From Rhodococcus zopfii NBRC 100606 = JCM 9919 (GTDB lineage: Bacteria; Actinomycetota; Actinomycetes; Mycobacteriales; Mycobacteriaceae), in the NCBI RefSeq assembly GCF_001895025.1, contig NZ_BCXI01000003.1:62001-126000 (forward strand): a DNA stretch of 64,000 bases, written 5' to 3'. The notes beneath the pieces were generated by a model. That model ran no database searches. It saw only the letters and a program-made list of their open reading frames with translations, and was not told the origin of the DNA. This document shows positions 15,065 through 50,367 of the stretch, piece by piece. The translations under genes and the position numbers were made by a program. Each line of letters opens with the position of its first letter. Within the stretch, counting starts at the first letter, position 1.

Positions 15065-16708
15065 ATGACGGTTCCGATGCGCGCCCGGCCTTTCACGCGC
15101 TCCTTCCACCCGGTCGGACTCGCTTTTGCGCTGCTGTTCTTCGTGTGGTCGATGACCCCCTCTCTGTTGCCGCGCGCGTGGTACCTCCAGGGCGTCGCGA
15201 CCGGGATCAGCATGGTGACCGGGTACGGCATCGGCTGCCTGGTCGCGTGGATACTGCGGCGCTGTGGTGTGCAGCCGGACTGGTCGCCGAGGACGCGCCG
15301 CATCGGCTGGTGGGTGCTCGCGGGTGTCGCGGCCGTGGTGATACCGACATTCTTGATCCTCGGATCGTGGTGGCAGCAGATCGTGCGCGATCTCGTGACC
15401 ATGGAGCGGGTCGAACGGTCCCTCTATCTGCCGGTTCTGCTGATCGCGCTGGCGGTGGCGCTGCTGCTGCTGCTGATCGGGCGAGGCCTGCGGGCCGGTA
15501 CGAACAAGCTCACAGGGTTCGTCGACCGCTACACTCCGACGCCGGTTGCGCGGGTGACCGCACTCGTGGTCGTCGTGGTATTGCTCGTCGTGCTCGTCAA
15601 CGGTGCGCTCTACCGCGGCATTCTCGGCACCGCAGAGGAGGCGTTCGAGGCCGCCGACGCCGGGACCGCCGAGGGTGTGCAACAGCCGACCGCGCCGGAA
15701 CGCTCCGGGTCGCCGGAATCGGGGGAGACCTGGGACACCCTCGGCCAGGAGGGACGCACGTTCGTTGCCGGTGGTCCGGATGCCGCACAGATCGAGGCCG
15801 TGACGGGACGACCGGCCCTCGAACCCATCCGCGCCTACGCGGGCCGGGAGTCGGCGGAGACGATGGAGGGCATCGCCGAGCGGGTCGTCGCCGAGTTGAA
15901 GCGCACGGGTGCATTCGACCGCAAGGCACTCGCGGTCGTGACGACGACCGGCCGGGGCTGGGTCAACGGCCGAGTCGCGGCCTCCTTCGAATACCTCAAC
16001 GGCGGGGATTCGGCGATCGCGGCGATGCAGTACTCGTATCTGCCGAGCCCGCTCGCGTTCATCGCCGACCGGGAGTCACCGATGGAGGCGGGACAGGCCC
16101 TGTTCGAGGCCGTCTACGCCGTGTGGATCGATCTTCCCGAGGATGCCCGGCCGAAGCTCGTGGTGTTCGGCGAGAGTCTCGGGTCGTACGGCGGCCAGTC
16201 CGCGTTCGCGTCCGGTGCGGACCTGGTCGCGCGGACCGACGGGGCGTTGCTTGTCGGCACCCCCAACTTCGCGCAGCCGTGGGGGCGGATCACCGAGCAG
16301 CGGGACCCGGGTTCGCTCGAACGGCTGCCGATCGTCGACGAGGGCCGCAACATTCGTTTCGCCTCGAACCCGGACGATGCGAATCTGCCCGAGCCGTGGG
16401 AATTTCCGCGGATCGTGTTCTGGCAGCACGGCAGTGACCCGATCACCTGGTGGTCGTTCGATCTGTTGCTGCACCAGCCCGATTGGCTGCGTGAACCGCT
16501 CGGGCCCGATGTGGATCCGGGGATGCGCTGGATACCGTTCGTGACGTTCTGGCAGGTGACCCTCGACATGGTGTTCTCGGCCGAGGTGCCCGCCGGATTC
16601 GGCCATTCGTACGGCCCGGAGGCGGCGGACCTGTGGGCGGACATCCTCGCCCCCGAGGGATGGACGCAGGCCGATACCGACGCGGTGCGTGCCGCATTGG
16701 GTGGCTGA
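15065..16708 (+). CDS. Membrane-bound alpha/beta hydrolase (Abhydrolase_9 type)
   Basis: 547 residues in two parts. Residues 1-190 contain four or five membrane segments, the region seen in the Abhydrolase_9 N-terminal domain. The C-terminal half is an alpha/beta hydrolase with the nucleophile elbow GESLGS (Ser near residue 375), an Asp candidate in HGSDPITWW, and a His in FGHSYGPEA. Homologues are common in mycolata and poorly characterised. The shared promoter motif with a secreted lipase and an acyl-CoA dehydrogenase suggests a role in lipid turnover at the membrane (inference). Start chosen at the leaderless ATG after TACACT. Confidence 0.82.
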   Translation: MTVPMRARPFTRSFHPVGLAFALLFFVWSMTPSLLPRAWYLQGVATGISMVTGYGIGCLVAWILRRCGVQPDWSPRTRRIGWWVLAGVAAVVIPTFLILGSWWQQIVRDLVTMERVERSLYLPVLLIALAVALLLLLIGRGLRAGTNKLTGFVDRYTPTPVARVTALVVVVVLLVVLVNGALYRGILGTAEEAFEAADAGTAEGVQQPTAPERSGSPESGETWDTLGQEGRTFVAGGPDAAQIEAVTGRPALEPIRAYAGRESAETMEGIAERVVAELKRTGAFDRKALAVVTTTGRGWVNGRVAASFEYLNGGDSAIAAMQYSYLPSPLAFIADRESPMEAGQALFEAVYAVWIDLPEDARPKLVVFGESLGSYGGQSAFASGADLVARTDGALLVGTPNFAQPWGRITEQRDPGSLERLPIVDEGRNIRFASNPDDANLPEPWEFPRIVFWQHGSDPITWWSFDLLLHQPDWLREPLGPDVDPGMRWIPFVTFWQVTLDMVFSAEVPAGFGHSYGPEAADLWADILAPEGWTQADTDAVRAALGG

Positions 16709-38211: not shown

Positions 38212-38263
38212 ATCGGACCTGATTGCACACGTGGCTGATTCGTGACGCTTCCAGCGAAATCGA

Positions 38264-39298
38264 CTATCTTTCAGCCGCTTCGAGTTCGGGTTCGGCGAGT
38301 TGGCCGAGTCGGCTCCTGATTCGTTCGATGTCGACAGGTAGCCGGCCGCTGTCGGTGAGTGCGCTCAGGGGCGTGGCTGCGAGGAAGACGGTGGTGATGT
38401 CGCAGTCGTACAGCACGTCGACCACGTTGGCGAAACGTTGAGCAGGCTCACGCCCCGCGGCTCGAAGGTCCGGCACTGCACTGACGACCCACGTGCTGAA
38501 CTGTCGCGCGAGGGCGAGGTAGTCGACCGGGGCTGTGGTGTTCTCACACAGGTCGGCGTAGTCCACCCAGAGGAATGACTCAGCTGCGCGCAGGACATGG
38601 ACGGGATGTCCGGCCGGAGTGAGAATTGTGCGTTCGTCGGGCGTGGGCGAACGCAGTCCCAGCCGGTCCCCTTGCTCCTGCGTGCCGGGGCTGACCCACC
38701 ATCCGGCGGCGAAACCGGCCTCGTGGCCGGAGACGGTGCGGTAGTCCACAGGCCCGTCGACGGAGATGACGGTGAAGAACTGCTCGATCAACTCGATCGA
38801 GGGAACGAAGTCGTCGTGGAACAGCGGGTTGGGCATCAGGGAACGTGGCGGGTAGTTCGAAGTCAGGATCACCCGAATCTGCCGATCGAGAAGAGCGGGC
38901 AGGAGACGGGCGATGAACTTGCCGTCCGCGGGATCGTGGACGTGGAACTCGTCGAAGCACACGAGATCCACACCGCCCAACAGCTCGTCCAGGGCAGCGG
39001 CAAGGTTGTTGCCGTGCCGTCGGATGCCCAGATGCAGGTCGCGGAAGAACTCGTGGAAGTGAACCCGCACCTTCCGATCGGTCGGCAGCGCGGCGAAGTA
39101 CGTCGCCATCAGCCAGCTCTTGCCCCGCCCGACGGGACCCCACAGATACAGATTCAGATCGCCGGCGGCGAGGGCCGCCGCGGCTTCCAGCTGCGAATCG
39201 TCGAGGGTGAATCCCAGACCTCGTGCGGCGGTGTCGAATGCAGCGTCGTGTACGTGCAGTGAACGACGCGGTGGGGCCGTCCGGCGAGTCCAACGCAT
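38264..39298 (-). CDS. zapE: Cell division protein ZapE (AFG1-like ATPase)
   Basis: 344 residues. Walker A LWGPVGRGKSWLM, the HFHEFFRDLH motif, Walker B LVCFDEFHVHD and sensor LTSNYPPRSLMPN are all typical of the ZapE/AFG1 family. In E. coli ZapE modulates the Z-ring under stress; the actinobacterial role is less clear. ATG at 39298 preferred, since the alternative at 39316 lies within the palindrome shared with the divergent TetR gene. Confidence 0.9.
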   Translation of the reverse strand: MRWTRRTAPPRRSLHVHDAAFDTAARGLGFTLDDSQLEAAAALAAGDLNLYLWGPVGRGKSWLMATYFAALPTDRKVRVHFHEFFRDLHLGIRRHGNNLAAALDELLGGVDLVCFDEFHVHDPADGKFIARLLPALLDRQIRVILTSNYPPRSLMPNPLFHDDFVPSIELIEQFFTVISVDGPVDYRTVSGHEAGFAAGWWVSPGTQEQGDRLGLRSPTPDERTILTPAGHPVHVLRAAESFLWVDYADLCENTTAPVDYLALARQFSTWVVSAVPDLRAAGREPAQRFANVVDVLYDCDITTVFLAATPLSALTDSGRLPVDIERIRSRLGQLAEPELEAAER

Positions 39299-39307
39299 GG
39301 TCCGAGA

Positions 39308-39323
39308 CTCTAGCATCGTAGAG
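39308..39323. promoter_or_regulatory. Palindrome between zapE and the divergent TetR gene
   Basis: CTCTAGCATCGTAGAG: 5-bp arms CTCTA/TAGAG around 6 bp. It lies 23 bp upstream of the TetR ATG and may be its own operator. Confidence 0.35.
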
Positions 39324-39345
39324 CTTCGGGGAAATGGAGGTAGAC

Positions 39346-39942
39346 ATGGCTGATCGTCGCTCCCGCCGGGACCTGATCTGCGAGGCCGCGTTGGATCTGG
39401 CTGCCGAAGGCGGGAACCATGCGCTGACACATCAGGGCATCGATGCACGCCTCGGCCTGGCCCGGGGCTCGACTTCGTACTACTACCGCACCCGTCACGC
39501 GCTGGTGTCCGCCGCAATCGCGCACCTGACACGCCGGTCCCGTGAACACTTCGAGAGTGCCGCACCCTCTGTCGTGCCGCCCACGATAGAAGTAGCCGGG
39601 AACCTGATCGCAGACCAGCTCGAAACGCTGCTGACCGACCGGCGGAGGGACGTACTGGCTCGGTACGCGCTGGTCGTCGACGCGTCCGCGGATGACGAGT
39701 TGAGGGCAGGGTTGGCGTCGTGCCTGTTCTCGCTTCCCGCCGCAACCGCACTGATGGAGGAGCTCGGTGCATCCGAGCCCCTGGATGCTGCGCGCGATCT
39801 CATAAGTCTGCTCGAAGGGATGGTTTTCGATTTCGCTTCCGGGACAAGGGCACTCGTACCCGGCGGGTCTTTCACCGATCATCGTGAGTCGTTGCGGACC
39901 GCGATCCGTCTGTGGATAGGCACCCTCGCCACGAGCCGATGA
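39346..39942 (+). CDS. TetR family transcriptional regulator
   Basis: 198 residues. HTH at about 8-50 (ICEAALDLAAEGGNHALTHQGIDARLGLARGSTSYYYRTRHALV); the rest is an all-helical C-domain with the TetR_C_17-like pattern. The ATG at 39346 follows GGAGGT by 4 nt. It is convergent with the lanthipeptide exporter gene (15 bp apart) and divergent from zapE. Its target may be zapE, itself or the peptide cluster; sequence gives no decision. Confidence 0.9.
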   Translation: MADRRSRRDLICEAALDLAAEGGNHALTHQGIDARLGLARGSTSYYYRTRHALVSAAIAHLTRRSREHFESAAPSVVPPTIEVAGNLIADQLETLLTDRRRDVLARYALVVDASADDELRAGLASCLFSLPAATALMEELGASEPLDAARDLISLLEGMVFDFASGTRALVPGGSFTDHRESLRTAIRLWIGTLATSR

Positions 39943-39957
39943 CATCCGCGTTGGCGG

Positions 39958-41949
39958 TCACCCGGCAGCGTCATCGGTGTTCACGGCTCGGCCGGGACTG
40001 GGGTCTCCGGAACTGTTGCGGGACAGTGCTTCCGTTCCGGCGTTCCACATCCGGTCCTCGTACGGCTCGGCCTGGAGCCGATAGAAGTCGTGGTAGATCC
40101 CCCCGCGTCGCATGAGCTCGGCGTGCGTGCCGCAATCCACCATCCGGCCACGGTCGAGGACCACGATCCGATCGGCCAGACTCACACCGGAGAGCCGGTG
40201 GGTGATGAGGACGACCGCACGCCCGCCCGCTTCGGCCCGGATCATGTCGAAGATCATGCGCTCGGCGGGGGCGTCGAGCGCGGCCGTGGGTTCGTCGACG
40301 ATCAGCAGTCCGGGATTGCGGTAGAGGCTTCGTGCGATGGCGATGCGCTGCCACTGCCCGCCGGAAAGATCCGTGCCCCCGACATAGGACGGATCCAGCA
40401 TCGTGTCCGGCCCGTCGGGCAGTCTCGCCAGCACCTCTGCGGCACCCGAAGCCAGGCATGCCTGGCGGAGCCGGACGTCCGGTTCGGTGTTCGGTGCACG
40501 GCCGATGGTGATGTTCTCCCGTGCAGAGAACGGCCAGCGAGTGAAATCCTGTGCGACAACGGCTATCCGGTCGCGCAGCCATCGCCGATCCACCTGCTCG
40601 ATCGGCACACCCGAATACGAGACCCGCCCGCTGTCCGGTCGATACAGTCCGGCGATGATCCTGGCCAGCGTCGACTTCCCTGCGCCGTTGCCACCGACGA
40701 CGGCGACGACCTCACCCGGGGCGATGTCCAGGCTGATTCCACGCAGCGCCGGCGTCGCCGCCGACGGATAGGTGAAGGACACGTTGCGCAGTGCGACGGT
40801 GAATCGGTCGGAATACGGTATCGAGTTCCCGGAGCTTTCCTGCCGGTGCTCGGCCTCTCGCACGAAATCCACATAGTCCTGGTAGAACAGCGCGTTCTCG
40901 TAGGCGACATTCGTGGACGCGCTGAACCCTCGCATCGCCGACAACGCCGTCCTGATCGCCACCGCGGCAGTGCCGGCGACAGCCAACTGCATCGCACCGA
41001 CGTTCAGCAGGATCAGCAACACCACGTAGACGAGGCCGACGCCGGCCCCCGACAACGCCATACCGAATACCTGGGATCGGGCCTGGGCGTTCTCCGACGT
41101 CAATTGCGCGTCCCGCACATATCGCGCCAGCGCGCCGAACCGTTCCAGGAGATACGCGCCCATTGCGTACGCCCGGATCTCGGCCGCGGAGCGTCGGTCG
41201 GACATCAGATCGGCGAAGGTGTCCATCCTGCGCTGGGGTCCGCTGGTCTCGGCATACACGTTGTAGACCAGCCGGGCGGCCAGCACCGACGCGAACCAGC
41301 TCGGCACGACAGCCACGACCATCAGAGGCAGCAGGACCGGATGCAGCACGGTGAGGACGCCGCCCACGGCGACGAGTCCGAAGACACCGGCGACGGTTTC
41401 GAGGCCGCTGAACAGCAGACCGGTCACAGCGTCCGGGGATCGATCGCGCACCCGATGGAGTACGTCGCGGAAGCGACGATCATCGAAGGCGACGAGTTCG
41501 ACGGCGGTGGTCAGGGTGAGCAGTCGGGTGCGAATCGCCAGTTGGAGTTTGGGAACCAATCGGCTGCGTTGCCAGTCGACGATCTCCCGCAGTCCCGCGC
41601 GCACGACGAGCGCGATCAGCATCAGGGCCAGGCCGGGTGCCGCCGCTCGCACCCGCTCCGGAGTCGGCCCGGCCGTCAGCAGGCTCGACAGGACATCGGT
41701 CGTGGCGAGCAAGCCGACGGCGGTCAGGATCTCGGCGCTCGTGACTCCTCCGATGATCGCGACCGTGTTCATCGGACCGGCCCGGAAGCATTCGCGAAGC
41801 AACCGGCCGTAGACCTTCGGCAGCTTCCTCACGACGACCCAGAACCCCGCCGTGCGGACCGCCTCGTCGTGGGTGGTCCACGCCTCCACCCCGGGGGCAA
41901 TCTTCGCAGGTTCGAAGGTTTCTCGTTCCTCTGGATACATGACAACCAC
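39958..41949 (-). CDS. ABC exporter (fused permease-ATPase) of the lanthipeptide cluster
   Basis: 663 residues. After a ~45-residue cytosolic N-terminus come six membrane helices (about 60-350), then a nucleotide-binding domain with Walker A VGGNGAGKST (note Gly-Asn for the usual Pro-Asn/Ser), signature LSGGQWQRI, Walker B LLIVDEPTAALD and His in LITHRLSG. There is no C39 peptidase domain, so leader removal must be done by another enzyme, presumably the M16 pair. It is the last gene of the leftward operon. Start: GTG 41949 (2 bp after the preceding stop) or ATG 41940. Confidence 0.9.
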   Translation of the reverse strand: MVVMYPEERETFEPAKIAPGVEAWTTHDEAVRTAGFWVVVRKLPKVYGRLLRECFRAGPMNTVAIIGGVTSAEILTAVGLLATTDVLSSLLTAGPTPERVRAAAPGLALMLIALVVRAGLREIVDWQRSRLVPKLQLAIRTRLLTLTTAVELVAFDDRRFRDVLHRVRDRSPDAVTGLLFSGLETVAGVFGLVAVGGVLTVLHPVLLPLMVVAVVPSWFASVLAARLVYNVYAETSGPQRRMDTFADLMSDRRSAAEIRAYAMGAYLLERFGALARYVRDAQLTSENAQARSQVFGMALSGAGVGLVYVVLLILLNVGAMQLAVAGTAAVAIRTALSAMRGFSASTNVAYENALFYQDYVDFVREAEHRQESSGNSIPYSDRFTVALRNVSFTYPSAATPALRGISLDIAPGEVVAVVGGNGAGKSTLARIIAGLYRPDSGRVSYSGVPIEQVDRRWLRDRIAVVAQDFTRWPFSARENITIGRAPNTEPDVRLRQACLASGAAEVLARLPDGPDTMLDPSYVGGTDLSGGQWQRIAIARSLYRNPGLLIVDEPTAALDAPAERMIFDMIRAEAGGRAVVLITHRLSGVSLADRIVVLDRGRMVDCGTHAELMRRGGIYHDFYRLQAEPYEDRMWNAGTEALSRNSSGDPSPGRAVNTDDAAG

Positions 41950-41951
41950 GC

Positions 41952-42482
41952 CTATGCCGCCCGGACCTGGTCGACGACGAACGCCTCTCCGACATACAGC
42001 TCCGCGAGCACAGCCGCGACCGCGTCACGATCGACGGCATCGATGAGACGGCGGTAATCGTCGATGACGTCGGGGCGTCCGTACCGGGCGACGAAACCGC
42101 ACACCGCGTCCACGAACTGCGGCAATCCGGATACGCTGATGTCCAGCAGGCTCTGCGCACAGGCTTTCGCCCGGGCAAGGTCGCGGTCGCTGAAGGACAT
42201 GCGTCCCACACCCGCGATCGCGGCGCGGGTTCGCTCCACGATCTGGGCCGGGGCACATGCCGTATTCAGCCGATACTCGATCACCATGACGTTGCGTGCC
42301 CCTACCGAATCGATCGTGGACATCGCCGAGGTCGCCGGAATCCCCGCCGCGGCCAGGTGTTGCTCCAGAACCGACCCGCCGGGGTTGTTCACCAGCATCG
42401 CTGCGATGCGCGCGGCGATATGCCTGTCGTCGTCCTCGTCGTAGTAGGGCCTGGCAGCGAAGACGATTCGATTGTCGCCCAT
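41952..42482 (-). CDS. M16 peptidase-like protein, C-terminal-half homologue
   Basis: 176 residues resembling the second half of M16 (insulinase/pitrilysin) proteins: NPGGSVLEQHLAAAGIPATS corresponds to the stretch after the conserved Gly-Gly in the C-terminal M16 domain, followed by the helix-rich RDLARAKACAQSLL and a final FVARYGRPDVIDDYRRLIDAV. No HxxEH motif, so it is not itself catalytic. M16B enzymes act as a pair of an active and an inactive subunit; the active half is at 43624-44829. Start at 42482 is fixed by GGAGGT 7 nt upstream. Confidence 0.65.
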   Translation of the reverse strand: MGDNRIVFAARPYYDEDDDRHIAARIAAMLVNNPGGSVLEQHLAAAGIPATSAMSTIDSVGARNVMVIEYRLNTACAPAQIVERTRAAIAGVGRMSFSDRDLARAKACAQSLLDISVSGLPQFVDAVCGFVARYGRPDVIDDYRRLIDAVDRDAVAAVLAELYVGEAFVVDQVRAA

Positions 42483-42507
42483 GTCGATCACCTCCGATCG
42501 CGGCTCA

Positions 42508-43068
42508 TCAGGGCATCATCGAGGCCACGGCCCCCATGACGATGGTCGTCAGGGAAAGGTCCCCGGTGCCGAACGCGGCCGCAAGCGCATAGCCGACGAG
42601 CAGTTCCTCCACTGTCGGGACGGGAGGCTCCACCGTCTTGTGCAGCACCTTCCTCGGAAGAGCCCAGAACACTTCGACGGTGCCGCCCGCACGAAGGGTG
42701 AATTCGCCGAATTCCTTCTCGATCTCGTGGGGCTTCCCGTTCAGATAGGTGGTCGCCTCGATGTCCTTGGGACGCAGGCTCACGAATCGGCCGTCGAACT
42801 CCGCCACGATGCGGTAGTTGCGCTTGAACAGCCGGCCACTGCCGATCGTCAGCGTCAGTTCACGGCCGTTCACGCGGGCGGAGACGGCAGCGGCATCGCG
42901 GGTGCCGAGGGGGCACTTGTGGGTCCGGGGACCGATCCGCTCGATGACGACGGAATTGCTGTCGTCGGACTCGGGGAACGTCCTGACACTGTTCTCGGAT
43001 CGTTCGATGATCACCGTCCCGGAGATCAGGGTGTCGACTGCGGTGCGTTCAGGACCTGCTGTTGTCAT
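42508..43068 (-). CDS. Unrecognised protein of the lanthipeptide cluster
   Basis: 186 residues. Residues 1-140 are strand-rich by pattern (TLISGTVIIERS, RELTLTIGSGRLFKRNYRIVAEFDGRFVSLRP); the C-terminal ~35 residues are hydrophobic with small residues (ELLVGYALAAAFGTGDLSLTTIVMG), enough for a membrane or amphipathic anchor. I do not recognise a family. Its position within the operon and 20-bp overlap with the preceding gene imply it works with the others, for example as a docking or immunity factor (speculation). Confidence 0.8.
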   Translation of the reverse strand: MTTAGPERTAVDTLISGTVIIERSENSVRTFPESDDSNSVVIERIGPRTHKCPLGTRDAAAVSARVNGRELTLTIGSGRLFKRNYRIVAEFDGRFVSLRPKDIEATTYLNGKPHEIEKEFGEFTLRAGGTVEVFWALPRKVLHKTVEPPVPTVEELLVGYALAAAFGTGDLSLTTIVMGAVASMMP

Positions 43069-43627
43069 CTTCTATCCTCACATTCCCGCCGATGACGGCG
43101 AACTCCGATGGTGTTGTGGTGTAACAGGATCGGACTGGAGAGTACAGCTGCACCGGGAGGCACTCCGGCGTGGCCAGCGCGCGGGTCATCACCGATCGGC
43201 GCAGCTGTGCATACGCCGATTCGGGAGGCCCGGTGTGCGGTTCCGCAGGCTCGCCCTCACCCGGACGCGACACGCGGTCCTCGATCTCCGCGGTCGCATC
43301 GAAGACTGCCAGCGCGAGCGCGCGTGTGCGTTCCCACCCGCTTTCGATACAGCTCGCCGAGACGATGATCGTCCGTTCGTCGTAGGAGACCGACAGGGAC
43401 GACCCGCGTGCCCAGCCGGTCGACACGCGGTCCGGTGACGCAGCGTCCGGGTCCGTCGCCGCCTCGAGGGTGTCCACCGCGCGTCGGTAGACGGCCCGCA
43501 CGAGGTGACGCGGCCACGTCTCGACCATCCGCACGAACCGCGCCTCCACGAGCGGATTGCCCGGGTCGCCGATGACGATCGTCGCGATGCCGCTCGACGA
43601 CGGTACGGACCGACATTGCAGTGTCAT
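43049..43627 (-). CDS. Unrecognised cluster protein, possibly a degenerate M16 domain
   Basis: 192 residues. The segment GSSLSVSYDERTIIVSASC followed by ERTRALALAVFDATAEIED recalls the strand-helix unit of the first M16 domain (strands, then the helix before the third zinc ligand), but there is no HxxEH. The terminal part (LPVQLYSPVRSCYTTT) has no match I know. The ATG overlaps the stop of the active M16 gene (ATGA). Could be an M16 accessory domain or something new; confidence in the gene is high, in the family low. Confidence 0.75.
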   Translation of the reverse strand: MTLQCRSVPSSSGIATIVIGDPGNPLVEARFVRMVETWPRHLVRAVYRRAVDTLEAATDPDAASPDRVSTGWARGSSLSVSYDERTIIVSASCIESGWERTRALALAVFDATAEIEDRVSRPGEGEPAEPHTGPPESAYAQLRRSVMTRALATPECLPVQLYSPVRSCYTTTPSEFAVIGGNVRIEDDNSRS

Positions 43628-44829
43628 CGTGGCCTCACTCCTACCGGAACCACCTCGGGGTCTGTCGCCAGCATCTGTTCGACAAGGACCGCAAGGCTTC
43701 TCGCCAGAACGAGATTCTCGGATTCGGTGCGTCCGGTCGTCCGGAGGTCGGGATGAGCGACGTCGTCGTGGACCTTCGCGCGGTTGCGGGCGATTGCGCG
43801 CTGCGGCAGCGCCTGATTCAGCCGTGCGCACCGGAACAGCCGATGGCGATCCAATGCCGCCATCAGGCCGGGTCGGACAGCACGGATCTCGGTGAGCAGC
43901 AAGGAGAGGGCTTGTTCGAGGGGTCGCCGGGCCAGTCGCCGATACTCCTCCGCGGGGAGTTCGCGATCCGGGGAAATGCCGACCCCGAGGTAGTCCGCAC
44001 CGCGAGTCACGTGTCTCTCCCCGAACTGGCTCACCCGAATTTCCCATCGGGAAGGGCCCAGGCCAGCGACCGGACGGTCGTGCACAACGAGGCGCATCAG
44101 TGTGGCCAGGTCGTCGAGTTCTGCCGCTCTATGCCACTCGTCGTATCGGAAAAGCCAGCCGCAGAAGGCGATCCGTCCGGTGTCGGGATCGGGACAGTGG
44201 CCGCCTGCTGCTGCGGTCGCCACGGTTTCCAGCCCGGACGTGCCGTCACGGTGGGCTGCCTCGTTCGCTGTGCGCGGCCACCGGACGACCTCGGGGGTCG
44301 ACGTCGAGAACATGGTGGGCCGTGGGCCCCAGGTCTGCTGTACGGCCGCCGCCAGGCTGTCGACCGTCCACTCGTGGAGGAGCGCACGATGCCCGTATCC
44401 CCAGTCCGTCCCGGGGCCGTAGACTCCGAGACGTCGTGGCAGTTCGCGATCGAATGCGCAGCCCACCGCCTCCGATTCCGCAGACACGATTTCTTCGTCG
44501 ATCACCGACACCTCGTGAGCCAGATCCCCCTCGGTCCACTGCCACCAGTCGATGGTGTCCAGGGGCGTGGCCGCCGACGAATCGACGAAGAGCAACAGTT
44601 CGGTCTGGTACTGGAGAGTCTTGGCGCTGCACATGACGAGGCGATCTCCGTACATGCGGCGGAGGGAAGCCAGCGCCCAGTGTTCGCGGAGATGGGCGAA
44701 CCCGGAACCGTACTCCACGTCGTCGTGGGCGCCTCCGTCGATGATCACGGACACCATCGGATTCCGCTGCGCTCCCCGCATCGCCGCGGCGGAGAAGTCG
44801 ATCGTGTGGGTGCCGGCCGCCGTCAGCAT
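43624..44829 (-). CDS. M16-family metallopeptidase, probable leader peptidase
   Basis: 401 residues. The inverted zinc motif HxxEH is at His46-Leu-Arg-Glu49-His50 in GSGFAHLREHWAL, preceded by the family's D-x-x-x-x-G-S-G approach. An acidic stretch (IDEEIVSAESE, about 110-120) can supply the third ligand. The second half (about 190-400) is unlike standard M16 proteins and holds conserved-looking WLFRYDEWH and RPLEQALSLL. I infer it removes the leader of the precursor at 48360, together with the C-half homologue at 41952. Start overlaps the HopA1-like stop by 7 bp. Confidence 0.7.
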   Translation of the reverse strand: MLTAAGTHTIDFSAAAMRGAQRNPMVSVIIDGGAHDDVEYGSGFAHLREHWALASLRRMYGDRLVMCSAKTLQYQTELLLFVDSSAATPLDTIDWWQWTEGDLAHEVSVIDEEIVSAESEAVGCAFDRELPRRLGVYGPGTDWGYGHRALLHEWTVDSLAAAVQQTWGPRPTMFSTSTPEVVRWPRTANEAAHRDGTSGLETVATAAAGGHCPDPDTGRIAFCGWLFRYDEWHRAAELDDLATLMRLVVHDRPVAGLGPSRWEIRVSQFGERHVTRGADYLGVGISPDRELPAEEYRRLARRPLEQALSLLLTEIRAVRPGLMAALDRHRLFRCARLNQALPQRAIARNRAKVHDDVAHPDLRTTGRTESENLVLARSLAVLVEQMLATDPEVVPVGVRPR

Positions 44830-45809
44830 CGTGCCTCGACGGGAAGGTTCGACGAGTAGTCGTGCGGATGAACGCCGAACACGAGGGCGGAACGTTCCAG
44901 TGCAGCATCCAATGTGCCTCCCGTAGTGGCGAATTCGATCACGGCGTCGGCGATCATCAGGCTGCGATGTTGGCCGAAGCTCAGGTTCCGCAGCGTCGGG
45001 TCGTCGAAATTCACCGGAGGTTCCTGTGCCGTCGAAATTCCGGGGTGACACTGCCGGGTCAACAGTGAACCGGCCACGAAGTGGTCCCGATGCTCGGTGC
45101 TCCAGGCGTGAACCGCGTCGCAGATCTCGTCCGGGTCTTGATCGACATAGAGCACCATGGAGTCGCTGCGGGGATAGTCGGCGGGACAGGTCAGCAGCTT
45201 CACATCGAAGTCGATGCCCCACACGTCGAGGCACCGCACGACGTCCACGAACAGTCGTACCGCCGCGTCCGGGTCGCCGATGGACAGGTAGACACGGGTT
45301 TCCTTCTCCCGGTACCGGCTCTCGTCGAGGGAGGAAGGTCCGTAGACATAGAAGAAGCCCGGCGAGACGGCGCTCGAATGGTGCTGGAGCCGGATGTCGA
45401 CCTCGGATCCGTGGAAACGGACAGCCTTGTCCCGTGTGGTCCGCACGCGAACCCCGTTCTGAAGGTACACCACGGAGTCTGCTCGTTCCTCGACGAGAGG
45501 GCGGCGCACGACGAACGTGCGGTCGGCGAACTCCTGAAGGAGAGCGAGTTCCATACGAGAACCGTTGGCAGGCTTGGGTGCAAGAGCCTCGTCGGACCAC
45601 TGTGGTCGCCTCCGGGTCGAGGCGGGCATGCCGTGTCGCGCGTGCAGGATGTCGTACAGGACCGCAGCCAGCTTGTGCCGGACGACGCTCGCGGGTCCGG
45701 TCAGCTCGGTGCCCTCCAGGGTGATCGTCACGTCGTCTCCGCGCCGGCCGGTGTGCTCCAGCACAGCGCGGAGTGTCTCCGCGACGGCAACGCTGCTGTT
45801 CGTCGTCAT
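44823..45809 (-). CDS. HopA1-family protein, probable phospho-Ser/Thr lyase of class V lanthipeptide synthesis
   Basis: 328 residues. The central motif SPGFFYVYGP, then ETRVYLSIGDPDAAVRLF and DSMVLYVDQDP, are the pattern of the T3SS effector HopA1 domain. HopA1-like proteins are paired with APH-type kinases in thioamitide (TvaD) and class V lanthipeptide clusters (LanY-type), where they eliminate phosphate to give dehydroalanine/dehydrobutyrine. The ATG at 45809 overlaps the kinase stop (ATGA), matching that partnership. Family call is from motif memory, not a search. Confidence 0.75.
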   Translation of the reverse strand: MTTNSSVAVAETLRAVLEHTGRRGDDVTITLEGTELTGPASVVRHKLAAVLYDILHARHGMPASTRRRPQWSDEALAPKPANGSRMELALLQEFADRTFVVRRPLVEERADSVVYLQNGVRVRTTRDKAVRFHGSEVDIRLQHHSSAVSPGFFYVYGPSSLDESRYREKETRVYLSIGDPDAAVRLFVDVVRCLDVWGIDFDVKLLTCPADYPRSDSMVLYVDQDPDEICDAVHAWSTEHRDHFVAGSLLTRQCHPGISTAQEPPVNFDDPTLRNLSFGQHRSLMIADAVIEFATTGGTLDAALERSALVFGVHPHDYSSNLPVEARC

Positions 45810-46942
45810 GCCGTGATCCGATCCAACTCGAACTCTTCGATGAAGGCGTCGGGATCGAGGAGCAGTGCTCGTCCGATCCCGGCGAGTGCGCGGGACTGCG
45901 CGGTGAGCGTGACTACGCCGGCCGCGTTCGCGAGCAGTCGATCGAGCTGGTGCCAGCCGGCGAATCGCGAGATCTCCGCGGCCCAGACCCGGTCCAGAAG
46001 TCGTCGCGGACGGGTGCGGCACCATGCTTCCTGATAGCCCGAGCACAACTCTTTTGCCAGCGTCTTCGCGTTCTCCAGACCGGTTCGGACGGCCGTCTCG
46101 TGGGCTTCCCTGCCGGATGGGTCGCTGCCGAGGCTGCACAGCGATGCGATGACCGAGGTGTTGACGATGTCCCCGATCAACGAACCAAGATCCCGGGCGG
46201 TCGGTCCGGTCCCGAACTCCTCCCAGTCGATGATCCAGTGGTGTTCGTCGTCGGAGATCAAGATCTGGTCGAGCCGCAGGTCTCCGTGCAGGGGGCCGCT
46301 CGGCGTGGGGGAGGGATCCGACAGCAGGCGGGTCGCCGCCGTGTGAAGCGCACGATCGCCGTGCAGCAGACGGAGCGCGACCAGTTGCGCTGCGGACAGC
46401 CCGGGCACGATCGCGTCGTCGACGTCACCGACCGCGAAACTCGACGGCATCGCACCGGCGGGATGTACCGCGGGGGCTGTATCGATGCGCGCGGCATGGA
46501 GCACTCCCACCGATTGCCCGATCCGATACATTGTCCGTGGATGCAGGGTCCGTTCCACCAATCTCTGCTGCGCCGTGGGAGATTGCGGAACGACGTCGTA
46601 CACCTGCACCCGGCCGTCCTCGGACATCGCGCGCAGCGTCGGCGTCGAGATGTTCCGGCGCAGACGGTCATCGGCGTCGAGAAGATCGTGGAAAGTCTTT
46701 GCACGCGAACATGTTCGCGGTGCCGGCGGTGCGGTCGTCTCGTACTTGACGAAGAGGGAATGACCCTTCGTGGTCCTGCTGACCCAGTTCGGATTTCGGC
46801 CCCCGAGCTGGATCGGGTCGACCATCGTTCCGACAGCAGCCGCGGTCAGCACCTCGCGTACGTCCAGGTAGTCGTCCAAGTCCTCGGCGGCGTATCGCAG
46901 TGGTGCCTCGACCCAGTCGGTCACGGGAGTATCCCGTCCCAT
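45806..46942 (-). CDS. APH-fold kinase, probable Ser/Thr kinase of class V lanthipeptide synthesis
   Basis: 378 residues with an intact aminoglycoside-phosphotransferase fold: candidate ATP Lys66 (LFVKYE), Brenner motif His219-Gly-Asp221 in LHGDLRLDQ, and the metal-binding Asp239 in IIDWEEFGTGP followed by RDLGSLIGD. In class V clusters such a LanK-type enzyme phosphorylates precursor Ser/Thr before HopA1-mediated elimination. The start ATG 46942 has GAGGAG six nt upstream, overlapping the preceding gene by 22 bp; GTG 46924 is an alternative. Confidence 0.8.
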   Translation of the reverse strand: MGRDTPVTDWVEAPLRYAAEDLDDYLDVREVLTAAAVGTMVDPIQLGGRNPNWVSRTTKGHSLFVKYETTAPPAPRTCSRAKTFHDLLDADDRLRRNISTPTLRAMSEDGRVQVYDVVPQSPTAQQRLVERTLHPRTMYRIGQSVGVLHAARIDTAPAVHPAGAMPSSFAVGDVDDAIVPGLSAAQLVALRLLHGDRALHTAATRLLSDPSPTPSGPLHGDLRLDQILISDDEHHWIIDWEEFGTGPTARDLGSLIGDIVNTSVIASLCSLGSDPSGREAHETAVRTGLENAKTLAKELCSGYQEAWCRTRPRRLLDRVWAAEISRFAGWHQLDRLLANAAGVVTLTAQSRALAGIGRALLLDPDAFIEEFELDRITA

Positions 46943-47757
46943 TGAATGCTCCTCAGTAGTGTGAACAGCTCGTCCGTCAGGTCGTCGGCGGTCGCCACGA
47001 ACGTGTCCGCGTAATCCAGGACGTGGAGCACGCTGCGGTGCTGGGCGAAGGCCATGATCGACCGGCGATCCAATCCCGCCGTGTGGGTGTCGATGATCGT
47101 GCTCAGTGCCCGGCAGTGGTGAGCGATCGGAAACGACTCGAAGAGGGCGATTTCTCCGAGCTCCCCGATCAGAAACCCCCAGTCCGTCTCGGGCGGGCCG
47201 ATCGAGAGATCTTCGCCGGTCAAGACGACTCCCCGGTCCGCGGTCAGATACACCGACGCCAAGGAGGGTGCCCCGTGCAGCAGGCCGGGCCTGGACGACG
47301 CTTGCGGCATCAGGGGGAGATCGAAATACTCCGCCGGAATCTCGCGCCGTAATATCTCATCAACTTCTGTTGCAGCACAGCGAAGCTCACGTAGGTGTGC
47401 TTCGAGTCTCCGAATCCACGGAGGACCGGTCGGGACACCCGATGTCACCATGTCCTGGCCGCTTCGATGGAGTTCGTCGAGCACATGTCCGATCGCGGTG
47501 ACCGCGATCCGTGCATCCTCGGCCGAGTCTGCGTCCAGCGCGATCGAAGAATCCGCCGGAAGCCGATACTCGAACTCGTCGGAAGTTGCGGAGGGCACGA
47601 CCGCGCCGGATACCCGTTGCACACGTGTGAGATCGGGTGTCTCTCGTTCGCCGCGGTCGGAACGAATCCGCACGATGTTCAGAGAATCGGGAGTGCGGTG
47701 TTGGACGGAGACGAGGTTTCGGCTAACGGAGACCGACACCGGGTCGGATGTCTTCAT
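46921..47757 (-). CDS. Degenerate APH-fold pseudokinase of the cluster
   Basis: 278 residues. It keeps the APH outline but loses the catalytic residues: the Brenner-like site reads LLHGAPSLASVYL (residues 160-171, Asp replaced by Ala163), and the metal site reads LTGEDLSIGPPETDWG, without the Asp-Trp-Glu of its neighbour. It is therefore likely non-catalytic and may bind the leader or shape the cyclisation complex, perhaps the counterpart of the third (LanX-type) component in class V systems; I cannot verify that equivalence. The start overlaps the flavoprotein gene by 35 bp, which implies close coupling. Confidence 0.7.
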   Translation of the reverse strand: MKTSDPVSVSVSRNLVSVQHRTPDSLNIVRIRSDRGERETPDLTRVQRVSGAVVPSATSDEFEYRLPADSSIALDADSAEDARIAVTAIGHVLDELHRSGQDMVTSGVPTGPPWIRRLEAHLRELRCAATEVDEILRREIPAEYFDLPLMPQASSRPGLLHGAPSLASVYLTADRGVVLTGEDLSIGPPETDWGFLIGELGEIALFESFPIAHHCRALSTIIDTHTAGLDRRSIMAFAQHRSVLHVLDYADTFVATADDLTDELFTLLRSIQWDGILP

Positions 47758-48289
47758 GATTTCCAATCTGGTCCAGCAACTCGACGACGTCTGTGAACGG
47801 GACGGGTGCACCACGGACCTCGGTTCCCAGCACCGCGCTCGGTGCGACGATGGTCGGCAGCAACTCGACCCGCCGGTGGCCCTCGAGTCGTGCCGTCGCC
47901 TGCTCGAACGAGAACGATTCGGCACCGCCGGGCGGGAGCGCCGGGGCGATCACGATTCGGGCCGCGGAGCACTGGATCGACAGCATGACCGGCGTATCGA
48001 CGGTGCCCAGCGAGAATCGCGTGACGAAGTTCAAACTCGCCGGATAGACCACGATTACGTCCGGCCATCGGCTGAGTTCCACGTGCTGCCCGTTCCGTAT
48101 CCGATCCCAGTCGTCGAGGAGGACGTGGTCGGCGTGCATCGCACAGGCATCGCGTGTGACGAATCGGAGTGCTGCGGCGGACAGCGCGACGCGTACCTCG
48201 TCCGCGGGGCGCATTGCACGAAGCGTCTGCAGGCAGAGGGGAGTCAGGGGCGCCATGGCTGCGCCGGTGACATAGAACAGAACTTTCAT
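47723..48289 (-). CDS. HFCD-family flavoprotein, cysteine decarboxylase (LanD/TvaF type)
   Basis: 188 residues. Rossmann-like start KVLFYVTGAAMAP, active-site His69 in QHVELSRWPDVIVVYPAS, and the PASLNF motif (83-88) equivalent to PASANT of EpiD. The family oxidatively decarboxylates a C-terminal Cys to an enethiol, which closes on dehydro-residues as AviCys or AviMeCys. The precursor's last residue is Cys, as required. First gene after the precursor; the ATG at 48289 lies 8 nt from the base of a hairpin. Confidence 0.9.
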   Translation of the reverse strand: MKVLFYVTGAAMAPLTPLCLQTLRAMRPADEVRVALSAAALRFVTRDACAMHADHVLLDDWDRIRNGQHVELSRWPDVIVVYPASLNFVTRFSLGTVDTPVMLSIQCSAARIVIAPALPPGGAESFSFEQATARLEGHRRVELLPTIVAPSAVLGTEVRGAPVPFTDVVELLDQIGNHEDIRPGVGLR

Positions 48290-48297
48290 CGCGGATG

Positions 48298-48331
48298 TTG
48301 GTTGGCGCGCACGGAAATACGCGCCAACCAA
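48298..48331 (-). promoter_or_regulatory. Hairpin between precursor gene and decarboxylase gene
   Basis: TTGGTTGGCGCG (48298-48309) and CGCGCCAACCAA (48320-48331) form a perfect 12-bp stem with a 10-nt loop. There is no T-run, and the stem base is 8 nt from the next ATG. Such hairpins often stabilise precursor mRNA or act as partial terminators, giving more precursor than enzyme. Confidence 0.7.
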
Positions 48332-48359
48332 GCCCCCCTTCTACAACCAGGTCCGCCGG

Positions 48360-48572
48360 TCAGCAGACTTTCTGGATCGTGTTCTTGACGTTCGGCGTTC
48401 CGCCGGCGAGCGTGATTGCGCACTGCTGCGACGACTTCTGGGCGATGAGAGTCGCGCGCAGGAGCAACGGCGTCAGGACGGGAGTGGTTGCCGGAGCGCC
48501 CACCCCGGAGGCACCTCCTGCCGCCAATTCGTCATCGGTCGTGTACATCCGGTATCCATCGGACAGTGCCAT
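48360..48572 (-). CDS. Lanthipeptide precursor peptide, probable class V (LanA)
   Basis: 70 residues, start MALSDGYRMYTTDDELAAGG with AAAGGA upstream. The first ~20 residues are an acidic leader ending in Gly19-Gly20. The following part (from about residue 21) is rich in Ser/Thr (10) with only two Cys, Cys51 and the C-terminal Cys70. The end, Thr65-I-Q-K-V-Cys70, has the T-x4-C spacing of the AviMeCys ring in thioviridamide-type peptides, and Ser48-Q-Q-Cys51 could form a lanthionine. The exact cleavage site is unknown. First gene of the operon. Confidence 0.85.
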   Translation of the reverse strand: MALSDGYRMYTTDDELAAGGASGVGAPATTPVLTPLLLRATLIAQKSSQQCAITLAGGTPNVKNTIQKVC

Positions 48573-48721: not shown

Positions 48722-49072
48722 ATGGTGGCAGAAATAAGCTCTGCACCAATAGAACTCGTGCACACATCTTCGGCTGGAGCGGATAGTCTTGCGGCTCGGG
48801 AGTCCACTCCCTCGTCTCCGCAGCTGGTGGTGGAGCACCCGATCGTGCGGGTCGACACGAACGACCGGGTCCAGTACCTGCCGCACGTCCTCCGCGACGT
48901 GGGGCTACGAGGGCTGGCCGAGACGGTCTATCGGGGCATGGCGACCGGGCAGCGTTGGGGAAGGGGCTGGAGCAGGCTCAGGGACCCGCAGAGTTTCCGG
49001 TTGTTCGAGCCCGGTCGGCTCAGTGCAGGATTCGGGGACCCAATTGGTGGGCGAGTTCGAGGGCGAGCATGA
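48722..49072 (+). CDS. Hypothetical protein, divergent from the precursor gene
   Basis: 116 codons from ATG 48722. The middle (VVEHPIVRVDTNDRVQYLPHVLRDVGLRGLAET) is codon-biased like a real gene, but the end runs into the 3' part of the convergent PucR gene and reads as Arg/Gly-rich antisense sequence. It may be a gene remnant. Nothing in it is recognisable; low confidence. Confidence 0.3.
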   Translation: MVAEISSAPIELVHTSSAGADSLAARESTPSSPQLVVEHPIVRVDTNDRVQYLPHVLRDVGLRGLAETVYRGMATGQRWGRGWSRLRDPQSFRLFEPGRLSAGFGDPIGGRVRGRA

Positions 49073-50255
49073 GTGCCAGTCGGTGTTCGCCGGGGTGGTG
49101 GCCGAGCAGTTCGGTTGCGCGGGCGACTCGTTGCAGGACGGTGTTGCGGTGTGTGTGTAGGCGTACTGCCGCGCGGGGTGCGTTTTCGGCTTCGTCGAGG
49201 TATATCCGAAGGGTTTCGCGGAGGCGCTCGGCTGTGGGAGTGTCCGCGGCCAGTGATCCGAGTGTGTCGGTGACGAATTCTGCTGCGCGGTCGTGATCTT
49301 GGGCAGTCAGTGCGGTGACTTCCAGGTCCTGGTACAGCGCGAGTCGGGTACCGCCGGGGTGACCGGCGAGCAGGCGCTGGATGGCCACTGCGGCGGCATG
49401 GGATCGGCGGAACCCGGTGATGCCGGATCGGGTGGGTCCCACAGCGACCCGGACGTGGGATTGGGCCTGCGCGATAGCGTTTCGCATCGCGTCGCGGGAG
49501 AGGTCGGCCTCGGTACCCAGCCACGCCCACAGTGTGGAGGTTCCGGCGGGCAGGGTGAGGGGGTGACGAGCGCCGACGGCACGCGCCAGAATGGTGGCAG
49601 CCGCCTCCAGGGCGCCTTGGACTTCGCCGACCGGTTGGGACCACAGCACCAGCGCGGTGTGGTGACGGGCGAGGTCGTAGCCGAGTCTCTCGCCGGCCCG
49701 GGAGCTGTCGATCGGTGCACCGTCCAGGATCAACCGGACCGTTTCGGTGCGGCGTGCGAGAGCGCCGCCGAGCACCTGTTCCCGCTCCCGCTGCGCTTCG
49801 GCGAGGACGCAGGCCACAACGTGGTCGACGTATTCGAATATGCGTTGCGAGGAGGCGTTCAGCAGGTCCATCAGCAGGGGGCTCGCCGGAACGCGCGCGG
49901 CGACGAGTGTCATGTAGCGCTGCCAGGCGATGTTCTGTCCGCGGCGATAGGACTGGAAGATCGCCTCGAAGTCGATGCCGCGTCGAGCGATGGTGCGGGC
50001 GATATCGAGTGCTTCGGGTGGGACGTCGATCGGTGCGGTTCGGTCGTTTCGTCGGGTGAGGGTGGTGAGCAGACGCAGGGCATTCGCGCGGTTGCTCGCC
50101 GACATGTCCGCCGCGATCGCGGCGTCTGCACCCAGTGCGGGCGTCAGCTCGATTTCGGCGGCGTCCATCTCGGCGACCAGCTCGTCGAGTTCGCCCAGCA
50201 TCAGCTCGGCGACCTCACCCATCAGCTCGATCACCTCGGGGGATTCTCCGCTCAT
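49020..50255 (-). CDS. PucR/CdaR-type transcriptional regulator
   Basis: 411 residues. The N-terminal ~150 are helical (no PucR domain motif), the centre resembles the degenerate GGDEF-like domain of CdaR regulators, and the C-terminus has the HTH_30 pattern LRETLRIYLDEAENAPRAAVRLHTHRNTVLQRVARATELLG. Divergent from the monooxygenase operon at 50368 with 112 bp between, so it probably activates it in response to the substrate. Start MSGESPE at 50255 chosen. Confidence 0.88.
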   Translation of the reverse strand: MSGESPEVIELMGEVAELMLGELDELVAEMDAAEIELTPALGADAAIAADMSASNRANALRLLTTLTRRNDRTAPIDVPPEALDIARTIARRGIDFEAIFQSYRRGQNIAWQRYMTLVAARVPASPLLMDLLNASSQRIFEYVDHVVACVLAEAQREREQVLGGALARRTETVRLILDGAPIDSSRAGERLGYDLARHHTALVLWSQPVGEVQGALEAAATILARAVGARHPLTLPAGTSTLWAWLGTEADLSRDAMRNAIAQAQSHVRVAVGPTRSGITGFRRSHAAAVAIQRLLAGHPGGTRLALYQDLEVTALTAQDHDRAAEFVTDTLGSLAADTPTAERLRETLRIYLDEAENAPRAAVRLHTHRNTVLQRVARATELLGHHPGEHRLALMLALELAHQLGPRILH

Positions 50256-50367
50256 GAGCAAATTGTGCCAGCGCACATATCGAGCCGAAAGGACTGAGCA
50301 TGCAAACATTCCTCTGCGGTGAATACCTCCCTAACGTGAAACGCATCACATTCGAGAAGGAGGATCG

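Follow-up and report, generated by a model that had tools for sequence, protein, structure and literature searches.

A Probable Class Va Lanthipeptide Gene Cluster in Rhodococcus zopfii and Its Relatives in Rhodococcus and Nocardia

Introduction

Putative class Va lanthipeptide gene clusters were counted at 851 (PMC12291118) and 219 kinase/lyase gene pairs were reported from Actinobacteria outside Streptomyces (PMC7794033). Type-A leaders of the precursor peptides are marked by a fully conserved Tyr at position −17, by an acidic position −12 with a hydrophobic residue directly after it, and by Ala at −3 and Pro at −2 (PMC9486802). In class Va the LanX protein, which has a kinase fold without kinase residues, closes the aminovinyl-methylcysteine (AviMeCys) ring, and RosX requires residues E220, H269 and D272 (PMC12291118, 2025). 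The lexapeptide cluster codes for two M16 proteins, LxmP1 and LxmP2, one of them inactive and the other active, proposed to form a heterodimer (PMC8068269). We describe here ten genes found at positions 39,958 to 48,572 of a 64,000 bp stretch of the Rhodococcus zopfii NBRC 100606 = JCM 9919 genome (contig NZ_BCXI01000003.1, positions 62,001 to 126,000), named hereafter the window, which very probably compose a class Va lanthipeptide cluster. This assignment was proposed initially in a reading of the nucleotide sequence carried out without database searches (the sequence-only reading).

Class V clusters were found in five Nocardia genomes from three species (N. elegans, N. mexicana and N. vulneris), the first ones in that genus (PMC12153302). 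The accessible part of a survey of 616 Rhodococcus genomes names class III lanthipeptides, not class V (PMC11433410), and the class V cluster of PMC13206832 belongs to Paenarthrobacter. The literature retrieved for Rhodococcus combined with class V lanthipeptide or aminovinyl, part of it in the form of listings, describes no such Rhodococcus cluster.

Precursor Peptide

The LanA precursor matches the NCBIfam model of LxmA-type leaders (NF038146, LxmA_leader) with 40.5 bits for a cut-off of 25. It terminates with the cysteine residue that had been noticed in the sequence-only reading. The putative core, T29 to C70, is 42 residues long with nine Ser/Thr and two Cys, and carries two ring motifs, S47-S48-Q-Q-C51 and T65-I-Q-K-V-C70, whose residues S47, S48, C51, T65 and C70 are invariant in the precursors of the five homologous clusters identified (see below). 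The window precursor is 90, 81, 60 and 56% identical to the four others. In its leader, Y10, E15-L16 and A26-P27-A28 fit the type-A pattern given a two-residue insertion; the cleavage site could also be elsewhere than before T29. For the core T29–C70 with nine dehydrations and loss of CO2H2 the predicted mass is 4182.344 Da ([M+4H]4+ 1046.593), or 4183.328 Da if the N-terminus carries a 2-oxobutyryl group; for shorter cores beginning at T41 or S47 it is 2960.584 or 2324.188 Da.

An RNA hairpin is found in the gap between the precursor gene and lanD (Table 1), with a folding z-score of −3.2 in the window and of −6.6, −3.9 and −5.2 in three relatives (loci L037, L033 and L034). The structure is kept after the precursor gene in the four clusters that were folded while its sequence differs. 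Because no U run follows the window hairpin, we read it as probably an element of transcript stability or processing that favours the precursor.

Modifying Enzymes

Profile searches recovered the LanD-type decarboxylase, the intact APH-type kinase and the HopA1-family protein recognized in the sequence-only reading, all above the respective Pfam cut-offs: LanD with PF02441 (Flavoprotein, 51.7 bits), LanK with PF01636 (APH, 42.8 bits) and LanY with PF17914 (HopA1, 85.8 bits). Their best sequence matches among solved structures (phmmer, PDB sequences) are CypD (6jdd, E 1.3e-10), LxmK (9dk1_A, E 1.9e-27) and LxmY (9dk1_B, E 2.4e-16), respectively. The score of LanD with the NCBIfam model of CypD, 65.9 bits, is far under the cut-off of 215. 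LanK retains R49, K66, D221, Q226 and D239, counterparts of LxmK residues named in PMC12291118, and the LanY residues R172, K204, R214 and Y221 are spaced like R187, K219, R229 and Y236 of CaoY (PMC9486802).

The gene between lanD and lanK codes for a protein that had been called a pseudokinase. The kinase motif HGD is indeed replaced by HGA and kinase residues are lacking, but the protein is better read as LanX. Its residues E199, H245 and D248 are invariant in the four aligned sequences; the distance from Glu to His is 46 in the window protein and 49 in both the N. elegans sequence and RosX, and that from His to Asp is 3 throughout. No match was found in Pfam or NCBIfam and the LanX profile gave nothing significant against PDB sequences. 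The profile also matches open reading frames (ORFs) of more distant cluster loci outside the set used to build it (L035, E 8.7e-16). The protein is most likely a kinase-fold AviMeCys cyclase.

Homologous Clusters and Distribution

A scan of genome contigs with LanY identified three loci, in Rhodococcus rhodnii, Nocardia wallacei and N. elegans, and a fifth cluster is present in another genome of the same family (G195, locus L072). In R. rhodnii and N. wallacei each of the ten genes has a homologue and the order is identical. Eight of the ten were found by tblastn in N. elegans (L034), where the assignment of X1 and P2 relies chiefly on position (identities of 25 and 17%) and their profile matches are circular, as both sequences are part of the profiles. 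Nine genes are present in L072, where X1 is weak (E 7.9e-4) and no exporter match was found at E 1e-10 or better, the threshold at which tblastn matches to the exporter are shown; homologues of the exporter LanT are found in the three other clusters. Since homologous sets occur in the same or nearly the same order in four other genomes, the association of these genes is not due to chance.

Pairwise identities among the five clusters are 32–79% for LanK, 26–73% for LanY, 23–64% for LanX, 25–63% for P1 and 41–78% for LanD. The precursor segment 41–70, which was picked after viewing the alignment, has 57–97% identity and ranks above every other compared gene in the ten pairs; the whole precursor (53–90%) does so in eight of them. 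The homologous loci keep, in this way, a strongly conserved precursor with Ser, Thr and Cys residues. Neither of the two conditions named in the sequence-only reading as refuting it, failure of the HopA1 or APH assignment in profile search and homologous loci devoid of such a precursor, therefore applies.

The LxmA-leader model has matches in at least 14 of 401 genomes of the family and in one of 18 genomes of the genus, the one of the window. The family count is a lower bound because the model missed G195, whose precursor is detected by tblastn (L072, positions 15757–15966, minus strand; the one 56% identical to that of the window). In another genome five leader matches of equal score, spaced by 206 bases from start to start, are found just after a HopA1 match (L042, G167:C1:2937982-2938889) and look like precursor genes arrayed in tandem. 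HopA1 matches are present in 25 of the 401 genomes. The seven weakest loci (L106–L112) look different, and two of the four that were scanned (L106, L108, L109 and L110, from genomes G121, G270, G294 and G335, respectively) have FHA or PP2C domains. In L108 the HopA1 domain shares its frame with two FHA stretches, in L110 it is beside a PP2C phosphatase domain, and in L106 and L109 it is alone in long open frames. The combination of FHA, PP2C and a phospho-Thr lyase would suit a signalling system that permanently removes phosphate.

Class Assignment and Proposed Pathway

We assign the cluster with high confidence to class Va because the leader, HopA1, APH and flavoprotein matches are above cut-off and LxmK, LxmY and CypD are the best structure matches; because the catalytic residues of LanK and LanY are kept, as are E199, H245 and D248 of LanX in a protein without kinase residues; and because of the type-A leader features, the invariant ring motifs and the four homologous clusters. 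The assignment is further supported by the absence of matches to LanC (PF05147) and YcaO (PF02624) in the whole genome, which agrees with the sequence-only reading on both counts (TfuA, also named there, was not searched for).

Several observations weigh against this assignment. LanK scores 230 bits with the NCBIfam model of LxmK, under the cut-off of 315, and at E 0.001 that model also matches in 5 of 14 control genomes, so that the kinase alone proves little. The LanX residues were likened to those of RosX by their spacing, the border between leader and core fits the published pattern only with two inserted residues, and M16 membership has weak support for P2 and none for X1 (see below).

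From homology, retained residues, gene order and conservation, and by analogy with the homologous lexapeptide, cacaoidin and rosin systems, we infer the following reactions and product. LanD would catalyze oxidative decarboxylation of the C-terminal Cys70 to an enethiol, while LanK would phosphorylate as many as nine core Ser/Thr and LanY eliminate the phosphate. Cys51 would then react with the dehydrated residue 47 to form a lanthionine ring in a largely substrate-controlled step, and LanX would guide the enethiol onto dehydrated T65, yielding the AviMeCys ring. The leader would be cleaved by an M16 complex of P1 and P2, perhaps with X1, and the product secreted by the ABC exporter; X2 would have an accessory role, perhaps in self-immunity. 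Dehydroalanine and dehydrobutyrine should remain in the product because none of the ten genes resembles a LanJ reductase or a methyltransferase.

A class V-type peptide having the AviMeCys ring only, or rings elsewhere than at 47–51 and 65–70, is unlikely but conceivable: cyclization under substrate control may vary, the core also contains T54 and T59, and one machinery was found to yield two crosslinking patterns (PMC11162475). Conservation of both motifs and both cysteines in the five precursors speaks for the rings as proposed. That the cluster is decayed and yields no product is very improbable. It is found in one of 18 genomes of the genus, is absent from the same site in a closely related genome (see below), and what is probably one M16 subunit is divided between two ORFs; yet the ten frames are all open, the X1/P2 arrangement recurs in relatives, and core and catalytic residues are conserved. 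We give even less credit to a thioamitide, or another ribosomally synthesized Avi(Me)Cys peptide made with the same kinase, lyase and decarboxylase: thioamitide clusters do have these three enzymes together with a LanX-like protein (PMC12291118) but the genome has no YcaO match, the leader matches the LxmA model and there is a second Cys with the S-S-x-x-C motif. A LanC-dependent class Vb system is ruled out by the absent LanC match.

Leader Peptidase

The cluster was said in the sequence-only reading to include a split M16 peptidase and two unplaced proteins. P1 has a HLREH sequence (HxxEH motif) at residue 46 and aligns with subunits of the active M16 kind from other class V loci (hhalign probability 96.9, E 1.4e-10). 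Its match to Pfam PF00675 is under cut-off (E 0.15), and the P1 profile found nothing significant among PDB sequences. P1 probably serves in leader removal. P2 matches PF05193 under the cut-off (E 0.0023; three of four members match) and the C-terminal half of inactive M16 subunits with E 0.0011 and a probability of only 21.

X1, one of the two proteins left unplaced, has in Pfam a single weak, unrelated match found in one of four members. Its hhalign comparisons with inactive, active and its own P1 subunits gave E values of 0.023, 0.17 and 0.21, none supporting a role as N-terminal half, and no Foldseek match reached E 0.001 (model with a predicted local distance difference test score, pLDDT, of 61). 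Five of the best 50 Foldseek rows, with E values of 0.1–0.35, are cytochrome bc1 complexes; the core subunits of cytochrome bc1 belong to the M16 family. X1 and P2 sum up to 368 amino acids, to be compared with 379 for the intact subunit in L044, and their ORFs are adjacent in N. elegans. P2 is probably the C-terminal half of a split inactive M16 subunit, of which X1 is perhaps the N-terminal half, a proposal made with reserve because the direct tests failed or were not significant.

X2 Family

X2, the second of the unplaced proteins, is present in the five clusters of the lineage with 40–78% identity. No Pfam or NCBIfam model fits it: a scan of 19 members gave few scattered weak matches (best E 0.0043), and a fold search with a poor model (pLDDT 52.5) had no useful match. 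X2 matches are found in 37 of the 401 family genomes, nine of them solely weaker than E 1e-6. Of these 37 genomes 28 have no HopA1 match, or 19 of 28 when the nine weak ones are left aside. X2 and HopA1 occur together in nine genomes; after removal of the three in-cluster cases the overlap is six in 398 (p 0.007), a value uncorrected for kinship on which we do not lean. Among twenty X2 regions that were read one has class V genes around it (L072) and two are truncated at contig ends (L068 and L087); the neighbours in the remaining ones share little, except that L074 and L085 have one conserved neighbourhood. Of 345 genomes sampled across the class 13 have an X2 match, and ten of these belong to one other family. 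There, X2 is one of the genes of a class V cluster and lies close to the exporter gene in two regions (L135 and L137), a third has a weak precursor-like match only (L136), and seven have no cluster. A tree built from 19 X2 proteins, which has no support values, mixes orphan and in-cluster copies.

Such a distribution fits immunity genes that persist longer or spread further than their cluster, and it fits equally a general family that clusters recruit. The odds are even that X2 takes part in biosynthesis or export rather than in immunity, its orphan copies being unrelated housekeeping paralogues. Its presence in all five lineage clusters and near the exporter in two more distant ones speaks for a partner role, to which the many X2-bearing genomes without HopA1 match and the interleaved, unsupported tree are opposed. 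More tentatively, X2 might represent a new protein family conferring self-immunity to class V lanthipeptides, with some members in clusters and others orphan in mycolata and Streptomyces-like genomes. No named immunity gene for this class was met in the literature covered, a partial set that does not establish absence in print. If X2 does confer self-immunity, an orphan copy would mark bacteria exposed to class V lanthipeptides.

Gene Organization and Genomic Setting

All ten genes, which had been counted as nine or ten, are read leftward in open frames (Table 1). Most were said to overlap by ATGA or GTGA. Overlaps are found at six of the nine junctions, but the four-base kind is limited to lanK/lanY and P1/X1, the others being longer (lanD/lanX 35, lanX/lanK 22, lanY/P1 7 and X1/X2 20 bases). 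Gaps separate the precursor gene from lanD, X2 from P2 and P2 from the transporter gene. The predicted exporter LanT matches PF00005 above the Pfam cut-off (113.3 bits).

Table 1. Coordinates of the cluster features in the window, with predicted functions.
Feature	Position	Strand	Length and basis
LanA, precursor peptide	48360..48572	−	70 aa; probable leader 1–28, core T29–C70
RNA hairpin, precursor/lanD gap	48298..48331	−	folding
LanD, predicted flavin-dependent cysteine decarboxylase	47723..48289	−	188 aa; PF02441
LanX, most likely kinase-fold AviMeCys cyclase	46921..47757	−	278 aa; residue spacing
LanK, predicted Ser/Thr kinase	45806..46942	−	378 aa; PF01636
LanY, predicted HopA1-type phospho-Ser/Thr lyase	44823..45809	−	328 aa; PF17914
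P1, probable active M16-type peptidase subunit (HLREH)	43624..44829	−	401 aa; HxxEH, profile comparison
X1, perhaps N-terminal half of split inactive M16 subunit	43049..43627	−	192 aa; position and length only
X2, uncharacterized, candidate self-immunity or export partner	42508..43068	−	186 aa; conservation
P2, C-terminal M16 domain, probably C-terminal half of split inactive subunit	41952..42482	−	176 aa; weak PF05193
LanT, predicted ABC exporter with fused membrane domain	39958..41949	−	663 aa; PF00005

The genome of the genus whose flanking genes are most similar to those of the window (G015) aligns with it at 89% (38259–39968) and 86% (48809–50364). None of the cluster genes is found between these aligned flanks in G015, and the cluster is therefore a discrete accessory cassette. 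The same site in G015 is occupied by a different stretch of ~4 kb with an ORF of 1085 codons (L118, 4932–8189) whose product, read by eye, looks like a kinase/LuxR-type regulator. Composition adds little since the cluster has a GC content of 65.4%, close to the 67.8% of the window outside it.

Comparison with Known Systems

The rosin cluster (ros, class Va; PMC12291118) shares with the window LanA, LanK, LanY, LanD, LanX, two M16B peptidases, an ABC exporter and the lack of an N-methyltransferase. The two systems also have in common the motifs (Dhx)2-x-x-Cys (Dhx, dehydrated residue) and T-x4-Cys, and nine core Ser/Thr are dehydrated in rosin A1, the number present here. Unlike ros, the window cluster has one precursor, one exporter and no reductase; it has X2, X1/P2 in place of one peptidase, and a longer probable core (42 amino acids). 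Likeness to lexapeptide (lxm; PDB 9dk1, PMC8068269, PMC12141560) is found in the LxmA-type leader, in the matches to LxmK and LxmY and in the M16 pair for leader removal, but the ten genes do not include the LxmM methyltransferase or the LxmJ reductase. With cacaoidin (cao; PMC8068269, PMC9486802) the window shares the dehydratase pair and, by spacing, the same lyase residues. The S-S-x-x-C motif is at the start of the cacaoidin core and inside that of the window. Unlike the product predicted here, cacaoidin is glycosylated and N-methylated, and a single protein carries both M16 domains of its leader peptidase.

The sequence-only reading suggested, with reserve, that the cluster would be new in mycolata. 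This does not stand: class V clusters are not new to mycolata, as reported for Nocardia (PMC12153302), where the N. elegans locus L034 is homologous to the window cluster with a precursor 60% identical, and a close relative is present in R. rhodnii. The window cluster or its relatives may also be listed in the sets of PMC7794033 or PMC12291118. The order of genes in N. elegans was read as P1-X1-P2-X2, unlike the one in the window. What is new is this sub-lineage, whose core is strongly conserved, the probable splitting of an M16 subunit, which we infer, and the X2 family. It adds a compact Rhodococcus/Nocardia lineage to the class Va systems, without genes for a reductase or a methyltransferase, and in X2 a family for which no curated model fits and which is open to tests of a role in immunity or export.

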